Below, one piece after another: positions 19,413 to 24,050 of a stretch of 64,000 nucleotides of DNA. The position numbers and the translations under genes were made by a program. The notes under the pieces are model-generated. The model did no database searches and was not told the DNA's origin. It saw nothing but the letters and a program-made list of their open reading frames with translations. How positions within the stretch are numbered: position 1 is the first letter of the stretch; every line of letters begins with the position of its first letter. This stretch comes from Nitrososphaerota archaeon (GTDB lineage: Archaea; Thermoproteota; Nitrososphaeria; Nitrososphaerales; Gagatemarchaeaceae): NCBI GenBank assembly GCA_027887005.1, contig JAPCJI010000002.1, positions 62,001 to 126,000 of the forward strand. Reading direction: 5' to 3'.

Positions 19413-19421
19413 CTTTAATAC
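19413..19421 (+). promoter_or_regulatory. TATA box for the respiratory bc-type locus
   Basis: CTTTAATAC centred near 19417 is the only clear TATA element ahead of the six-gene run that ends at 24050. The expected transcription start, about 19443, is a few bases upstream of TTG 19449. Confidence 0.4.
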
Positions 19422-19448
19422 TCCTTGCCAGAATCCAGCGGTTGCGGT

Positions 19449-19982
19449 TTGGCGCAAGCATTCGAAGACAGCGAGAAACAATCCAAAACGCTGCATCGAA
19501 TCTTCCTCTTTCTCTACCTTCAGTTCGCCTTCTATTGGGCGACAATCGCCGCGGGAATGCTCGTGAACTACTATTACGCGGTGCCCGGTGACATGCAAGC
19601 AAACTTCAGCAGCATCCTCCTGCAGTTCTTCGCCGCGCCTTCGCTCTTCGCCCACGTTACTTTCGCGGTTCTAAGCACTAGCATGAGCATTCCGGTGATC
19701 ATCTTAGCGAGAAGGGCCCGGCTTTCGCATGTAGTTCTCCTGCACGCTGGCGCAGTCACCGCAAGGATGGTGGGCTTCATTACTGGTCCGTTGTTCATGT
19801 ACTACGCGACTTCCGAAGTTGCTGACCCCTATTCCGCGAATATCTCGACCTTCATCATGGCCTCGGTGTTCCTGACCGCCGTCATCCTGACGTTCATGAG
19901 CAGGATATTCATTGTCAGAGAGGATGTCCGGATCAAGTACGTGGTGGGCGCAACGCCTCTGGTAGGTTTGAGACCGCAATGA
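19449..19982 (+). CDS. Four-TM membrane protein of the bc-type locus (unit A)
   Basis: Not recognised. From TTG 19449 the protein has 177 residues: a short charged start (MAQAFEDSEKQSK), then four hydrophobic segments. Key features are FAFYWATIAAGMLVNYY in TM1, FAHVTFAV at the start of TM2, RLSHVVLLHAG at TM3, and a final TM ending in SRIFIVRED. The TM1 [aromatic]-x(n)-GM pattern and the histidine at TM2 recur in the next two genes, suggesting a shared 4-TM fold. Position directly upstream of a Rieske protein and cytochrome b suggests a membrane subunit or assembly factor of that complex. The longer start TTG 19425 is possible. Confidence 0.7.
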   Translation: MAQAFEDSEKQSKTLHRIFLFLYLQFAFYWATIAAGMLVNYYYAVPGDMQANFSSILLQFFAAPSLFAHVTFAVLSTSMSIPVIILARRARLSHVVLLHAGAVTARMVGFITGPLFMYYATSEVADPYSANISTFIMASVFLTAVILTFMSRIFIVREDVRIKYVVGATPLVGLRPQ

Positions 19983-20464
19983 GGGCAGTATCGCTTGAGG
20001 GGGAGGAGATTGGCAATCTCGGCCTTCAAGGCCTGAAGCTGACATTGAGGCTTTGCTACTTCAACTTCGTCGTCTACCTCGCAATATACATAACAGGAAT
20101 GTATCTCAACATATTCGTCACCTCGGGAGTGAACACCGTAAGCATAGGGGACACCTCCAACATGGTACACATGGTAGGGGCCACCCTGAACTTTGCATTC
20201 ACCTTCATCGTGATGATGGTGGGTTTCATCTATGGAATGCGGAAGGTGGCGTTGTTCAGCCTTGGGGCGGTTGCCTCCTTGGTTGTGGCCACGATTGGAG
20301 GACTGCTGTTCCTGGCGACCGGAGGCGGGAGAGGCTCTGGAGGACTCACCCTTGCCGGCGGATGGATAATGTCACTCCTCTTCATGCTCGCGCTCTTCCT
20401 TTCATACTACGCCACTCTGAAGATCATGAGGGCGGTCAGGATACTGGAAACCGTCCGAACGTAG
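19979..20464 (+). CDS. Four-TM membrane protein of the bc-type locus (unit B)
   Basis: Not recognised. The 161-residue protein has four hydrophobic segments: YFNFVVYLAIYITGMYLN (TM1), MVHMVGATLNFAFTFIVM (TM2, with the histidine shared with its neighbours), KVALFSLGAVASLVVATIGG (TM3) and a last TM after a Gly-rich loop (TGGGRGSGG). Its ATG overlaps the stop of the preceding gene by four bases (ATGA). Spacing of GM in TM1 and His in TM2 matches units A and C, so these look like tandem paralogs. A heme- or quinone-related role is inference from context. Confidence 0.7.
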   Translation: MRAVSLEGEEIGNLGLQGLKLTLRLCYFNFVVYLAIYITGMYLNIFVTSGVNTVSIGDTSNMVHMVGATLNFAFTFIVMMVGFIYGMRKVALFSLGAVASLVVATIGGLLFLATGGGRGSGGLTLAGGWIMSLLFMLALFLSYYATLKIMRAVRILETVRT

Positions 20465-20476
20465 TGAGAAGATGAC

Positions 20477-21364
20477 ATGCTAGGGATGAATGGTTCGTTG
20501 GGATCCGTGGCAGGCGCTGACGAAGGGCAGGCGAAATGGCTCGTATACCTAATCTATCTTCAGGCGGCCTTCCTCGCCGTGACCTACGCCGAGGGGATGT
20601 GGTCGGCGCTTACTGTGCCCAGCTTCTCAGTCACCCTGCCTGATGTTATCGAGCACGGGGTAGCGTCGTCCGGGTTCGCGCTGATGACAGGCGTTGTGGG
20701 GTTCGTGGCTGCGCTCCGGGGTCACAGGCGCGTAGCGATCTCTAACATTGTACTCTTCGTCATCACGGTGATTGCTGGTTCAACTGGCTTCGCATTCCTG
20801 GCCAACACGACCGACCCCGGCCAAATAGCGGAGACGAACCTTTCAATGATAGCGACGGTCGCGCTGGGCATGCCCATCACTGGATACTCCCTGACCAAGG
20901 TGTCCCGAGCGTCAAGAAGCGACCCGGGCGACGCGTCCCCTGCCACCATTATGATCTATTTCGCGCTGGGGACGCTTGCCATTACGATCGTAGCAGGCGC
21001 TGCCATGCTTTCGACTTCACCGTCATGGTACGCCTTCGCCGTCTCGGCACATGTCGGGTTGGCGGCCCTAATGGTTGCCCTTGTTCTGGGAGTTTTAGTG
21101 ACATCTGTAACGGGAGCGTTCGGAGGAGATGCGTCGAAATGGGACCCGCAGGCGGTGGCCTACTCTCTCATTGCCCTTGGGTCCGCGACAATCGCAGGTG
21201 CCGACGGCGTGGTCTACATGACTTCGGGCGGCCTTTCGTACGTGATAGCAATGGCGGAAGTGGGCGTCCTCGTCTACGTCTTCCTGATGATCGCAAGCGC
21301 CGGGCCACATCATCGGGGGGTCACTCGGATTGACGGCGAAGGCCCGGCAAGAATTGCGCCTTGA
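20477..21364 (+). CDS. Eight-TM membrane protein, internally duplicated 4-TM unit (unit C)
   Basis: Not recognised. The 295 residues contain about eight hydrophobic segments forming two similar halves. Half one: YLIYLQAAFLAVTYAEGM, then VIEHGVASSGFALMTG, then RRVAISNIVLFVITVIAGS. Half two: YFALGTLAITIVAGAAM, then VSAHVGLAALMVALVLG, then AVAYSLIALGSATIAGADG. Each half repeats the plan of units A and B, with one histidine at the start of its second TM. The two-times-four-TM architecture recalls heme A synthase (CtaA/Cox15), but I do not see its full set of paired histidines. Stop overlaps the Rieske TTG. Confidence 0.7.
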   Translation: MLGMNGSLGSVAGADEGQAKWLVYLIYLQAAFLAVTYAEGMWSALTVPSFSVTLPDVIEHGVASSGFALMTGVVGFVAALRGHRRVAISNIVLFVITVIAGSTGFAFLANTTDPGQIAETNLSMIATVALGMPITGYSLTKVSRASRSDPGDASPATIMIYFALGTLAITIVAGAAMLSTSPSWYAFAVSAHVGLAALMVALVLGVLVTSVTGAFGGDASKWDPQAVAYSLIALGSATIAGADGVVYMTSGGLSYVIAMAEVGVLVYVFLMIASAGPHHRGVTRIDGEGPARIAP

Positions 21365-22356
21365 GTCGTGGTTGGACAGTGACCTCCGCTAGTACTCCGA
21401 TTCGTCTTCCTGATGTTAAGTCGGGAATCCTGCAGATGGCGTTCCTTTGCCTTGCCATCATGTCTACGCTGTTGGCCATGCCGCATGCGGCCAGGGCCCT
21501 CGCTACCAGTGGGAATTCGACCCGGACCGCGGTGGGGTTAGGTTCGACGAACCTGAACCTCACAACTGGGGCCGTTGTGACTTTCATCATCCTGCTGCTG
21601 GGGCTTGCCGCCGCGTTCTTGCTGATAGGGAGGTTCCAGAAGTCCCAGAAACGTAGCCAAGATTCGGTCACGGTGGACACGAAGTCCACGGAGGCCGACG
21701 AGGTCGCCGAGAGGGCCAGAAGCAAGAGGAACTTCCTGAAGCTGATGCTCACTCTGGGCGGGGTAGCTACCCTGGGCACGTTCGCGAGCATCTTCAGGAT
21801 ACTTGAGTACGTGCCTGCGCCTGGGCAGGGTTCTCGCACGACTGTCGCTCTCGCCTGGCCCGAGATCAAACTCGTCAACATCTCGACCCTCGATCCTTCC
21901 AAGCCGCTGCGCTTCAACTACCCGCTCGTGGACACGCCGTGCGTGCTCGTCAAATGCGGGCAGAAGGCGGACTACGGGGTCGGGCCCGATTCAGACATAG
22001 TCGCGTTCAACGACATCTGCCAACACCTGGGGTGCTTCTACGCGGTTCTTCCGCCGGGTTCGTCACCTCCGTGCGACGCAACTTTCCTTGCGGCCACTCC
22101 TCAGGGGTACTGTTGCTGTCATGGAGGGCAATACGACTTCGTCCATGCAGGCACGGTGATTGGGGGGCCCCCGCCGAGGAGTGTTCCTCAGGTCGTGTTG
22201 CGATTCGATGCGAGCACCGGCGACATCTACGCTGTAGGGATGGGGGGCCCCACGATCTTCGGGCACGGGCCGCCAGGAACGACAGACCCGGCCCTGGTGC
22301 TCAAGTATGACCTCACGGGCGGAACGGTCGTGACAGATGCGACGGTGTTCTCCTGA
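21361..22356 (+). CDS. Rieske iron-sulfur protein with extended N-terminus
   Basis: Electron carrier of a bc-type quinol-oxidising complex, passing electrons from quinol to an external acceptor. The 331 residues carry the 2Fe-2S boxes C220-x-H222-x-G-C225 and C251-x-C253-H254-G-G; C225/C253 would form the usual disulfide. Ahead of the cluster domain come three hydrophobic stretches: about 23-45, 68-90 and 126-147. The third follows SKRNFLK (121-127), resembling a Tat motif with KR for RR, which normally sits at the very N-terminus of Rieske proteins. TTG start overlaps the preceding stop (TTGA). Confidence 0.9.
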   Translation: MSRGWTVTSASTPIRLPDVKSGILQMAFLCLAIMSTLLAMPHAARALATSGNSTRTAVGLGSTNLNLTTGAVVTFIILLLGLAAAFLLIGRFQKSQKRSQDSVTVDTKSTEADEVAERARSKRNFLKLMLTLGGVATLGTFASIFRILEYVPAPGQGSRTTVALAWPEIKLVNISTLDPSKPLRFNYPLVDTPCVLVKCGQKADYGVGPDSDIVAFNDICQHLGCFYAVLPPGSSPPCDATFLAATPQGYCCCHGGQYDFVHAGTVIGGPPPRSVPQVVLRFDASTGDIYAVGMGGPTIFGHGPPGTTDPALVLKYDLTGGTVVTDATVFS

Positions 22357-22371
22357 ACGGGAGGAAATGAC

Positions 22372-23784
22372 ATGAGCACAAACCTGGGAGGGAAGCTCGT
22401 GGAATGGGTGAAGACGCGTTTCGGGCTCCGGACAAACGTATTGCGTCCCGTCCCGGAATACAGCATGAACCCCCTCTATTGGCTCGGCGCGTTGACGACC
22501 ATCGCATTTGGCCTGCAGGTCTTCACTGGCCTTCTGATGATGATCTATTACGTTCCCACGGTCGAACAGGCCTACTCCTCCACACAGTTCATCATTCAGA
22601 ATGTCCCCTTTGGCTGGCTCCTGGAAACCGTCCACCTTTACGGAGCCTATGCGATGATACTCCTGGCCCTACTCCACCTCTTTCGTGGCTACTTCCTCAG
22701 CGTCCAGAAGAAACCCAGAGAAATGATGTGGGTCACAGGAATGCTGATGGGCCTGACTGTGATGGGGTTCGGCCTCACGGGCTACCTGCTTCCGTGGACC
22801 GTGGTGTCCAAGTCTGCCACCGACGTCTCAATTGGCATGTTGAGCTTCCTTCCCGGACAGGTTGGGTCCATAGTCACGTTCCTCGTGGCCGGTGACGGCA
22901 GCAGCGCGGGAGAGCTCACGAGATTCTTTGACCTTCACATCCTCGTCCTTCCAGCTGCTCTCATTTCGCTCGTCGCGCTCAAGCTCTTTCTATTCGAGGC
23001 ACACGGGGCCGCCGAACCTGTGACCGGCCCGAAGGAATCCCGGGACATCCCATGGTTCCCCACTGTCTACCTCTATTTCGCGATGCTGGGCAGCTTGCTC
23101 ATTGCTGCGATTGTAGTGGCTTCGGCGCTGTTCCCGTTCAACCTCGCAGCGCAATTCACGCCTGCCGGCGCAGCGAACTACGTGCCCCAGCCCGAGTGGT
23201 ATTTCCTGTGGATGTATCAGATCCTGAAGTTCGCCTCCTTCGAGGGCTCCGGGATATACTACGCGCTGGGAGTGGTGACGGCCCTGGTAGCAGGACTGGT
23301 GCTTCTGCCATTTGTTGACCGTGGGGTGGCGCGGAACCCGAAATCGAGGCCCCTCTACACCACCGTCGGCGCGATAACGGTCGCGGAGCTATTGGTGCTG
23401 ACAGTCTGGGGATACCTTACGCCTGGGCAGATAATCCCTGACGCGCAGGCGGTCGAAGTGGTCGGGGCTGCAGCCTTGGTTGGTGCGGTGATGTCCGCGT
23501 TTCTCCTCAGGATGCCGCGGGGGATTCAGAGGTTCACTTCGGCAATCAGGTCCATACCACTGGCGCTAGTCCTTCCCCTCAAGAACCGGGGGGCGGCGTT
23601 GGCCTTCGTGGCCCTCCTATGCGTCGGGTCGGTTTGCTTCGCCAACCTCGTCGGGTTCGCTTCAGGTGCGAAGGCGGGTTCACCGCTTCTCTTGCTGGAC
23701 ATCGCGGGGTTGGTCACAACTTTCTTCGCTATGGTGAGAATCATGAGAGGAATGACCTTGGCGTACCGCAGGTCCCAGAATTGA
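22372..23784 (+). CDS. Cytochrome b of a bc-type complex
   Basis: Quinol-oxidising membrane subunit binding two b hemes. The 470 residues fuse the b6-like and subunit-IV-like parts and add about three C-terminal TM segments. TM2 has the expected pair His88 and His102. TM4 has His189, but the second position (+14/+15) shows Leu203/Lys204 instead of His: the stretch reads SLVALKLFLFEAHG, while the family has a histidine where Lys204 stands. LLPWTVVSKSATDVSIG and the Qo-site PEWY motif (QPEWYFLW) are present. ATG follows a GGGAGGAA Shine-Dalgarno sequence, 15 bases after the Rieske stop. Confidence 0.93.
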   Translation: MSTNLGGKLVEWVKTRFGLRTNVLRPVPEYSMNPLYWLGALTTIAFGLQVFTGLLMMIYYVPTVEQAYSSTQFIIQNVPFGWLLETVHLYGAYAMILLALLHLFRGYFLSVQKKPREMMWVTGMLMGLTVMGFGLTGYLLPWTVVSKSATDVSIGMLSFLPGQVGSIVTFLVAGDGSSAGELTRFFDLHILVLPAALISLVALKLFLFEAHGAAEPVTGPKESRDIPWFPTVYLYFAMLGSLLIAAIVVASALFPFNLAAQFTPAGAANYVPQPEWYFLWMYQILKFASFEGSGIYYALGVVTALVAGLVLLPFVDRGVARNPKSRPLYTTVGAITVAELLVLTVWGYLTPGQIIPDAQAVEVVGAAALVGAVMSAFLLRMPRGIQRFTSAIRSIPLALVLPLKNRGAALAFVALLCVGSVCFANLVGFASGAKAGSPLLLLDIAGLVTTFFAMVRIMRGMTLAYRRSQN

Positions 23785-23798
23785 GAGCGGAAGACGAG

Positions 23799-24050
23799 AT
23801 GATGAAGTACACCGTGGAAACCCTGTTGGCGGCCGCCGCCCTCACGCTGACGGTCTATGCGTGGTTGATCGACCCGGTTGTGAACCAACGAGCCTTCGGC
23901 GCGTTGATCGGGTCGGCGTTTGTGATATTCTCCATGATCATCTACGCATACTACAAGCCCTCGCTTACAGGAAGCAGTAACACCTGGCTTCTCGCTGGAT
24001 GTGTTACCGTGGCCGTTTTCCTCTTGCTTGCGGTGCAATTGGCAAGCTAG
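23799..24050 (+). CDS. Small three-TM protein closing the bc-type locus
   Basis: Not recognised. From ATG 23799 the product is 83 residues with three hydrophobic stretches: VETLLAAAALTLTVYAWL, ALIGSAFVIFSMIIYAYY and LLAGCVTVAVFLLLAVQL. It starts 14 bases after cytochrome b with a purine-rich ribosome-binding region (GAGAGCGGAAGACGAG), so it is co-transcribed. A second ATG follows the first immediately. Small TM proteins of this size commonly stabilise respiratory complexes; that role is inference. Confidence 0.72.
   Translation: MMKYTVETLLAAAALTLTVYAWLIDPVVNQRAFGALIGSAFVIFSMIIYAYYKPSLTGSSNTWLLAGCVTVAVFLLLAVQLAS

Follow-up and report, generated by a model that had tools for sequence, protein, structure and literature searches.

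Cytochrome b holds its hemes in a four-helix bundle, in which Gly residues are provided by helices 1 and 3 and the heme ligands by helices 2 and 4. To our knowledge, archaea generally lack cytochrome c1, and the onward transfer of electrons from archaeal Rieske proteins is poorly settled. A described system close to the locus studied here is the SoxABC-SoxL2(-SoxD) quinol oxidase cluster of the Sulfolobales. Our locus lies in a window of 64,000 nucleotides from a Nitrososphaerota archaeon (contig JAPCJI010000002.1). Both have a SoxL2-type Rieske gene, a SoxC-type cytochrome b gene and, by the Rieske gene, units of the membrane protein family described below. The SoxA and SoxB oxidase genes of the Sulfolobales cluster are absent from the window operon, and the units, which form two single genes in the Sulfolobales cluster, appear in the window as genes A and B and a fused gene C. 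In the following, G- and L-numbers denote the genomes and loci that were compared, with G000 being the window's own genome.

The genes of the operon all lie on the + strand. Gene A (19449..19982, 177 aa) and gene B (19979..20464, 161 aa) each encode one unit of four transmembrane (TM) segments, and gene C (20477..21364, 295 aa) encodes two such units, C1 and C2. Gene A, whose orthologs are 48 to 85% identical, probably starts at the TTG codon at 19449, as the orthologs do, instead of at 19413, and a longer gene from the TTG at 19425 is possible. Genes A and B overlap in an ATGA at 19979, 12 bases separate the end of B at 20464 from the start of C at 20477, and C overlaps the next open reading frame (ORF) in a TTGA at 21361. 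This ORF (21361..22356) is longer than those of its relatives because a small signal-peptide/TM protein is fused in frame to the N terminus of the Rieske 2Fe-2S protein, the latter resembling SoxL2 and the arsenite oxidase small subunit. The Rieske gene named in an earlier note on this DNA is indeed present, but shares its ORF with the signal-peptide/TM protein, and the two are separate ORFs in five related genomes (G033, G058, G067, G075, and G103); a real fusion and a lost stop codon both fit the sequence. The cytochrome b gene follows (22372..23784, 470 aa, best NCBIfam match SoxC), and the gene of a small 3-TM protein, S (23799..24050), closes the run. The bc-type hallmarks are found in the CxHxGC...CxxH motif of the Rieske protein and the PEWY motif of cytochrome b. 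Gene order, TM counts, junctions and the closing 3-TM gene are all as the earlier note had described them.

Profile-profile comparison with hhalign indicates that the 4-TM unit is repeated beyond chance. Column-reversed decoys gave E values mostly between 0.02 and 0.9, with the best at 0.0067, so family links were trusted only below about 1e-3. The comparison of A with B gave E values of 2e-6 to 4e-6, B with C1 1.5e-6 and A with C1 0.0016. When single units were compared with the wider family, the values were 1e-7 for A, 7e-9 for B, 9e-9 for C1 and 3e-4 for C2. The two halves of gene C show no direct similarity (E 0.36), though both match the wider family, and the direct value for gene A against gene C (0.0089) is above the trusted level, but both A and C1 reach 1e-7 or a lower value against the family. 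Protein D, an 8-TM family member found beside YeeE/TsuA-type and TusA genes, matches B at 1.6e-11 and alignment A13 at 2.3e-14, and A13 matches A16 at 1.2e-17. On these profile scores, A, B, C1, C2, the D units, single-unit proteins of Nitrososphaeria and the Sulfolobaceae-type pairs are one family, and the fourfold repeat of the unit described in the earlier note holds beyond the reversed decoys.

Pfam and NCBIfam yield no name for the family sets; older papers on Sulfolobales respiration may mention the genes. Weak and scattered Pfam and NCBIfam matches for A, C, D, A13, and A16 (b561, DUF6220, DUF1129, tape measure) are inconsistent and were rejected as noise. SoxD, considered as a known name for the Sulfolobus units, was likewise rejected, being a separate 43-aa protein of another family (PMC5461723).

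The GTDB genome scan for B found nine loci, all fitting Nitrososphaerota except for one record labelled "bacterium", and the named records with the same genes are Nitrososphaerales/Thaumarchaeota MAGs. The order ABC is kept in ten genomes, with a further fragment in G029. Six of the ten (G000, G033, G058, G067, G075, and G103) have ABC followed by the signal-peptide/TM protein, the Rieske protein, cytochrome b and S. A single-unit profile search of the phylum reached genomes of one family (f42) carrying soxABC-soxL, which we infer from these genes to be Sulfolobaceae. In these genomes the units are two adjacent genes directly beside a soxL-type Rieske gene and soxA-soxB-soxC, at 15/15 loci, which represent one or a few evolutionary events since the genomes share descent. 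Family members are associated with Rieske/cytochrome b genes in two archaeal groups. The link with bc-type genes drawn in the earlier note stands for these loci and the six Nitrososphaeria genomes, but not for four genomes (G007, G008, G022, and G024), where ABC lies by itself, with a VWA-type gene on one side, an actin-like gene on the other and no bc genes nearby. The genes around the single-unit relatives have no theme in common. Neither these relatives nor D lie next to bc genes; with the stand-alone ABC added, this means that the module cannot be an obligate bc subunit, and the family extends beyond bc complexes.

Some of these neighbourhoods have features of their own. The actin-like gene by the stand-alone ABC has an apparent intein-like insertion in G022 and G024 and none in G007 and G008 (L048:5391-8258, - strand; L049:3410-4795). 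Two 8-TM members (L069:7161-8081, - strand; L070:5385-6284) adjoin YeeE/TsuA-type transporter genes, and nearby genes encode a TusA-like protein and a polytopic protein of 302 aa, which suggests a sulfur-linked context. At L257:7628-8182 (- strand) in G687, a family member is accompanied by a short partner ORF, and the two adjoin a gene for a sulfocyanin-like cupredoxin, not soxL.

Three residues, the TM1 Gly, the TM2 His and the TM3 Gly, are invariant in 83/83 aligned units; in B they are Gly40, His64 (codon 20168) and Gly108. The corresponding codons in gene A are 19554 for the TM1 Gly and 19653 for the TM2 His, and the His residues of gene C are His60 (codon 20654) and His192 (codon 21050). 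The late TM1 Gly in all four units of the window (followed by Met in A, B, and C1) and the single His at the start of TM2 agree with the earlier note, and the conservation of this His among relatives, which it had left as a check, extends to every unit. At the start of TM4, a Met does not vary in the combined ABCD alignment A10 (Met131 of B), nor in A12, A13, and A16; gene C has Met124 and Met259. C2 and D2 are out of register in TM4 of the global alignment, yet within each of these groups the Met is again invariant (Met259 of C2 and Met280 of D2; alignments A6 and A7). In every unit a Met falls within the 24-residue stretch at the TM4 start, but chance often places a Met in a helical stretch of this length, and the weight lies on the column conservation inside each subfamily.

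The AlphaFold2 model of B, predicted from 36 aligned units, has a mean pLDDT of 90.4 and helices at residues 16-47, 59-84, 88-113, and 122-160, whereas the model of C from 8 sequences is poor (pLDDT 46). Gly40, His64, Gly108, and Met131 lie 5 to 9 residues from the outer ends of the predicted helices. Lys and Arg number 0 to 1 in the outer loops and 1 to 4 in the inner segments, giving an N-in/C-in topology with the Gly-His-Gly-Met residues all towards the outer (P) face. The Foldseek search of the B model against the PDB and viral models gave no significant relative, heme protein or other (E values of at least 0.28), the best match being a designed di-Zn/porphyrin four-helix protein, which is not significant either.

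The conserved residues might simply be packing positions of redox-silent subunits, serving as a scaffold of the complex or forming a quinol site. Two of the residues are Gly, which is typical for helix packing, and the gene contexts of the family are several and diverse, but an invariant His in a membrane helix over 83 units would be unusual for a purely structural role, and we regard this explanation as somewhat unlikely. We tentatively favor reading A, B, and C as members of a four-helix-bundle family that works with Rieske/cytochrome b complexes, ABC being a four-heme electron transfer module on the P side of a bc complex without cytochrome c1. By analogy with the plan of cytochrome b, with its Gly residues in helices 1 and 3 and ligands in helices 2 and 4, one His/Met heme per unit is proposed. 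The Gly-His-Gly-Met ring would form the heme pocket: the two Gly residues would leave space for the porphyrin, and the axial ligands would be the TM2 His and TM4 Met. The integral module with its four putative hemes could then carry electrons around the Rieske protein. The earlier note's interpretation, a heme-, quinone- or metal-binding module that is part of, or assembles, the complex, is partly supported overall. Of the outcomes that it had named as contrary to its idea, none was seen, apart from the four genomes with ABC away from bc genes as a partial case. The module has Rieske genes as neighbours in two archaeal groups distant from each other, among them the cultivable and genetically tractable Sulfolobales, and may be a partner of archaeal Rieske/cytochrome b complexes that has gone unnoticed and probably binds heme or a metal.

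The units share the four-helix plan of the archaeal 4-TM type of CtaA/Cox15, to which the earlier note had likened them. The profile of the whole family aligns the TM1-TM2 of the unit with TM3-TM4 of CtaA at an E value of 3.8e-4, close to the detection limit, over two helices, with reversed controls at 0.22 to 0.36; the TM2 His of the unit falls on the conserved TM4 His of CtaA. A13, A11, and C2 align in the same register (E 8.5e-4 to 3.6e-3). The likeness is lost when the profile of gene A or B is used alone, which gives no useful match to CtaA; PF02628 does not match any of A, B, C, D or the members of A13 or A16, and CtaA is absent among the best 50 Foldseek matches to B. The archaeal CtaA alignment has paired His residues in TM2 and TM4, whereas the units have one invariant His, that of their own TM2; the earlier note could not see the pair either. 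A hairpin likeness to TM1-TM2 of cytochrome b is weaker (E 0.0034 to 0.07), and the link to CtaA itself is weak.

This hairpin similarity speaks for the proposed heme module and also for a rival reading of the units as assembly or cofactor-delivery factors in the manner of CtaA/Cox15 or CopD. The units would then handle heme or Cu(I) on behalf of the complex or its oxidase and stay outside the finished enzyme. The Sulfolobaceae-type units adjoin soxABC, for which heme and CuB are required. Some relatives are isolated or lie by sulfur genes, as would be possible for an assembly factor, and a His and a Met would also fit Cu(I). On the other hand, G000 encodes separate CtaA genes of its own, the units lack the second conserved His and the extracellular Cys/Glu loop motif of CtaA, and four units by a copper-free Rieske/cytochrome b pair would be odd for a copper factor. 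We place a delivery role on the unlikely side.

A paralogous operon with the order cupredoxin, Rieske, cytochrome b and S is found in G000 (G000:C7), G022, G015, G008, and G024. Its cytochrome b is 47 to 51% identical to that of the window, and in G000 its S gene, a paralog of the window's S that comes after the genome's second cytochrome b, is matched by BLAST at 2e-7. The Rieske, cytochrome b and 3-TM S genes have the same order in both operons, so that ABC occupies the place of the cupredoxin gene, a secreted cupredoxin in the one operon being exchanged for ABC in the other. This arrangement counts for the four-heme proposal. In a bolder form of it, an unnoticed integral multi-heme subunit, with one His/Met heme per unit and four in the window, would replace cytochrome c1 or the cupredoxin as the P-side electron carrier; we consider this form unlikely.

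The cytochrome b of the window has His88 and His102 in TM2 and His189 and Lys204 (codon 22981) in TM4. In TM4, Lys occupies the second heme-ligand position in 11/11 sequences of the two paralogous cytochrome b groups (window 22981-22983, L050, L051, L066-L068, L161, and L163-L166), whereas the same position is His in the third, canonical cytochrome b of G000 (L162) and in the SoxC of L246. With Lys204, the cytochrome b of the window departs from the four-His heme ligand set of bc-type cytochrome b.

The search for relatives of B also pointed to AmoC/PmoC, a subunit of copper membrane monooxygenases, of which the units might be degenerate relatives. The E values for B against AmoC are 4.9e-4 in NCBIfam, 0.0022 in Pfam and 0.0037 in the PDB, and 0.00096 with the profile of alignment A10, and the TM2 His of B is placed on an AmoC His. 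The similarity is short and confined to B: profiles without B (A12, A13, A4, A6, and A7) give no AmoC match, the unit alignment A11 reaches 0.45, and hhalign of every subfamily against AmoC gives 0.08 to 0.87. B scores 17.8 bits with the AmoC family HMM, below the cut-off of 26.7, and AmoC/PmoC is absent among the Foldseek matches listed for B. From the copper ligands of AmoC (Asp-x3-His ... His; Asn/His/His), one His position coincides and the others are not conserved. The homology of B to AmoC/PmoC is largely refuted by the failure of the profiles without B, hhalign and Foldseek, leaving this origin highly improbable.

No amoC above the cut-off was found in G000, and its source is therefore taken to be a non-ammonia-oxidising Nitrososphaeria archaeon; the families of ammonia oxidisers with amoC belong to the same order. 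Separately, multi-TM proteins with AmoC/PmoC-like D-x3-H ... H motifs are encoded at L102:1225-2436, L104:1411-2400, and L108:775-1905 (- strand), the motifs of L102 and L104 being in tandem. Their genomes are without a matching amoC above the cut-off. The joint profile of the three proteins matches AmoC at an E value of 4.9e-9, and they might form an AmoC-like family outside the ammonia oxidisers.
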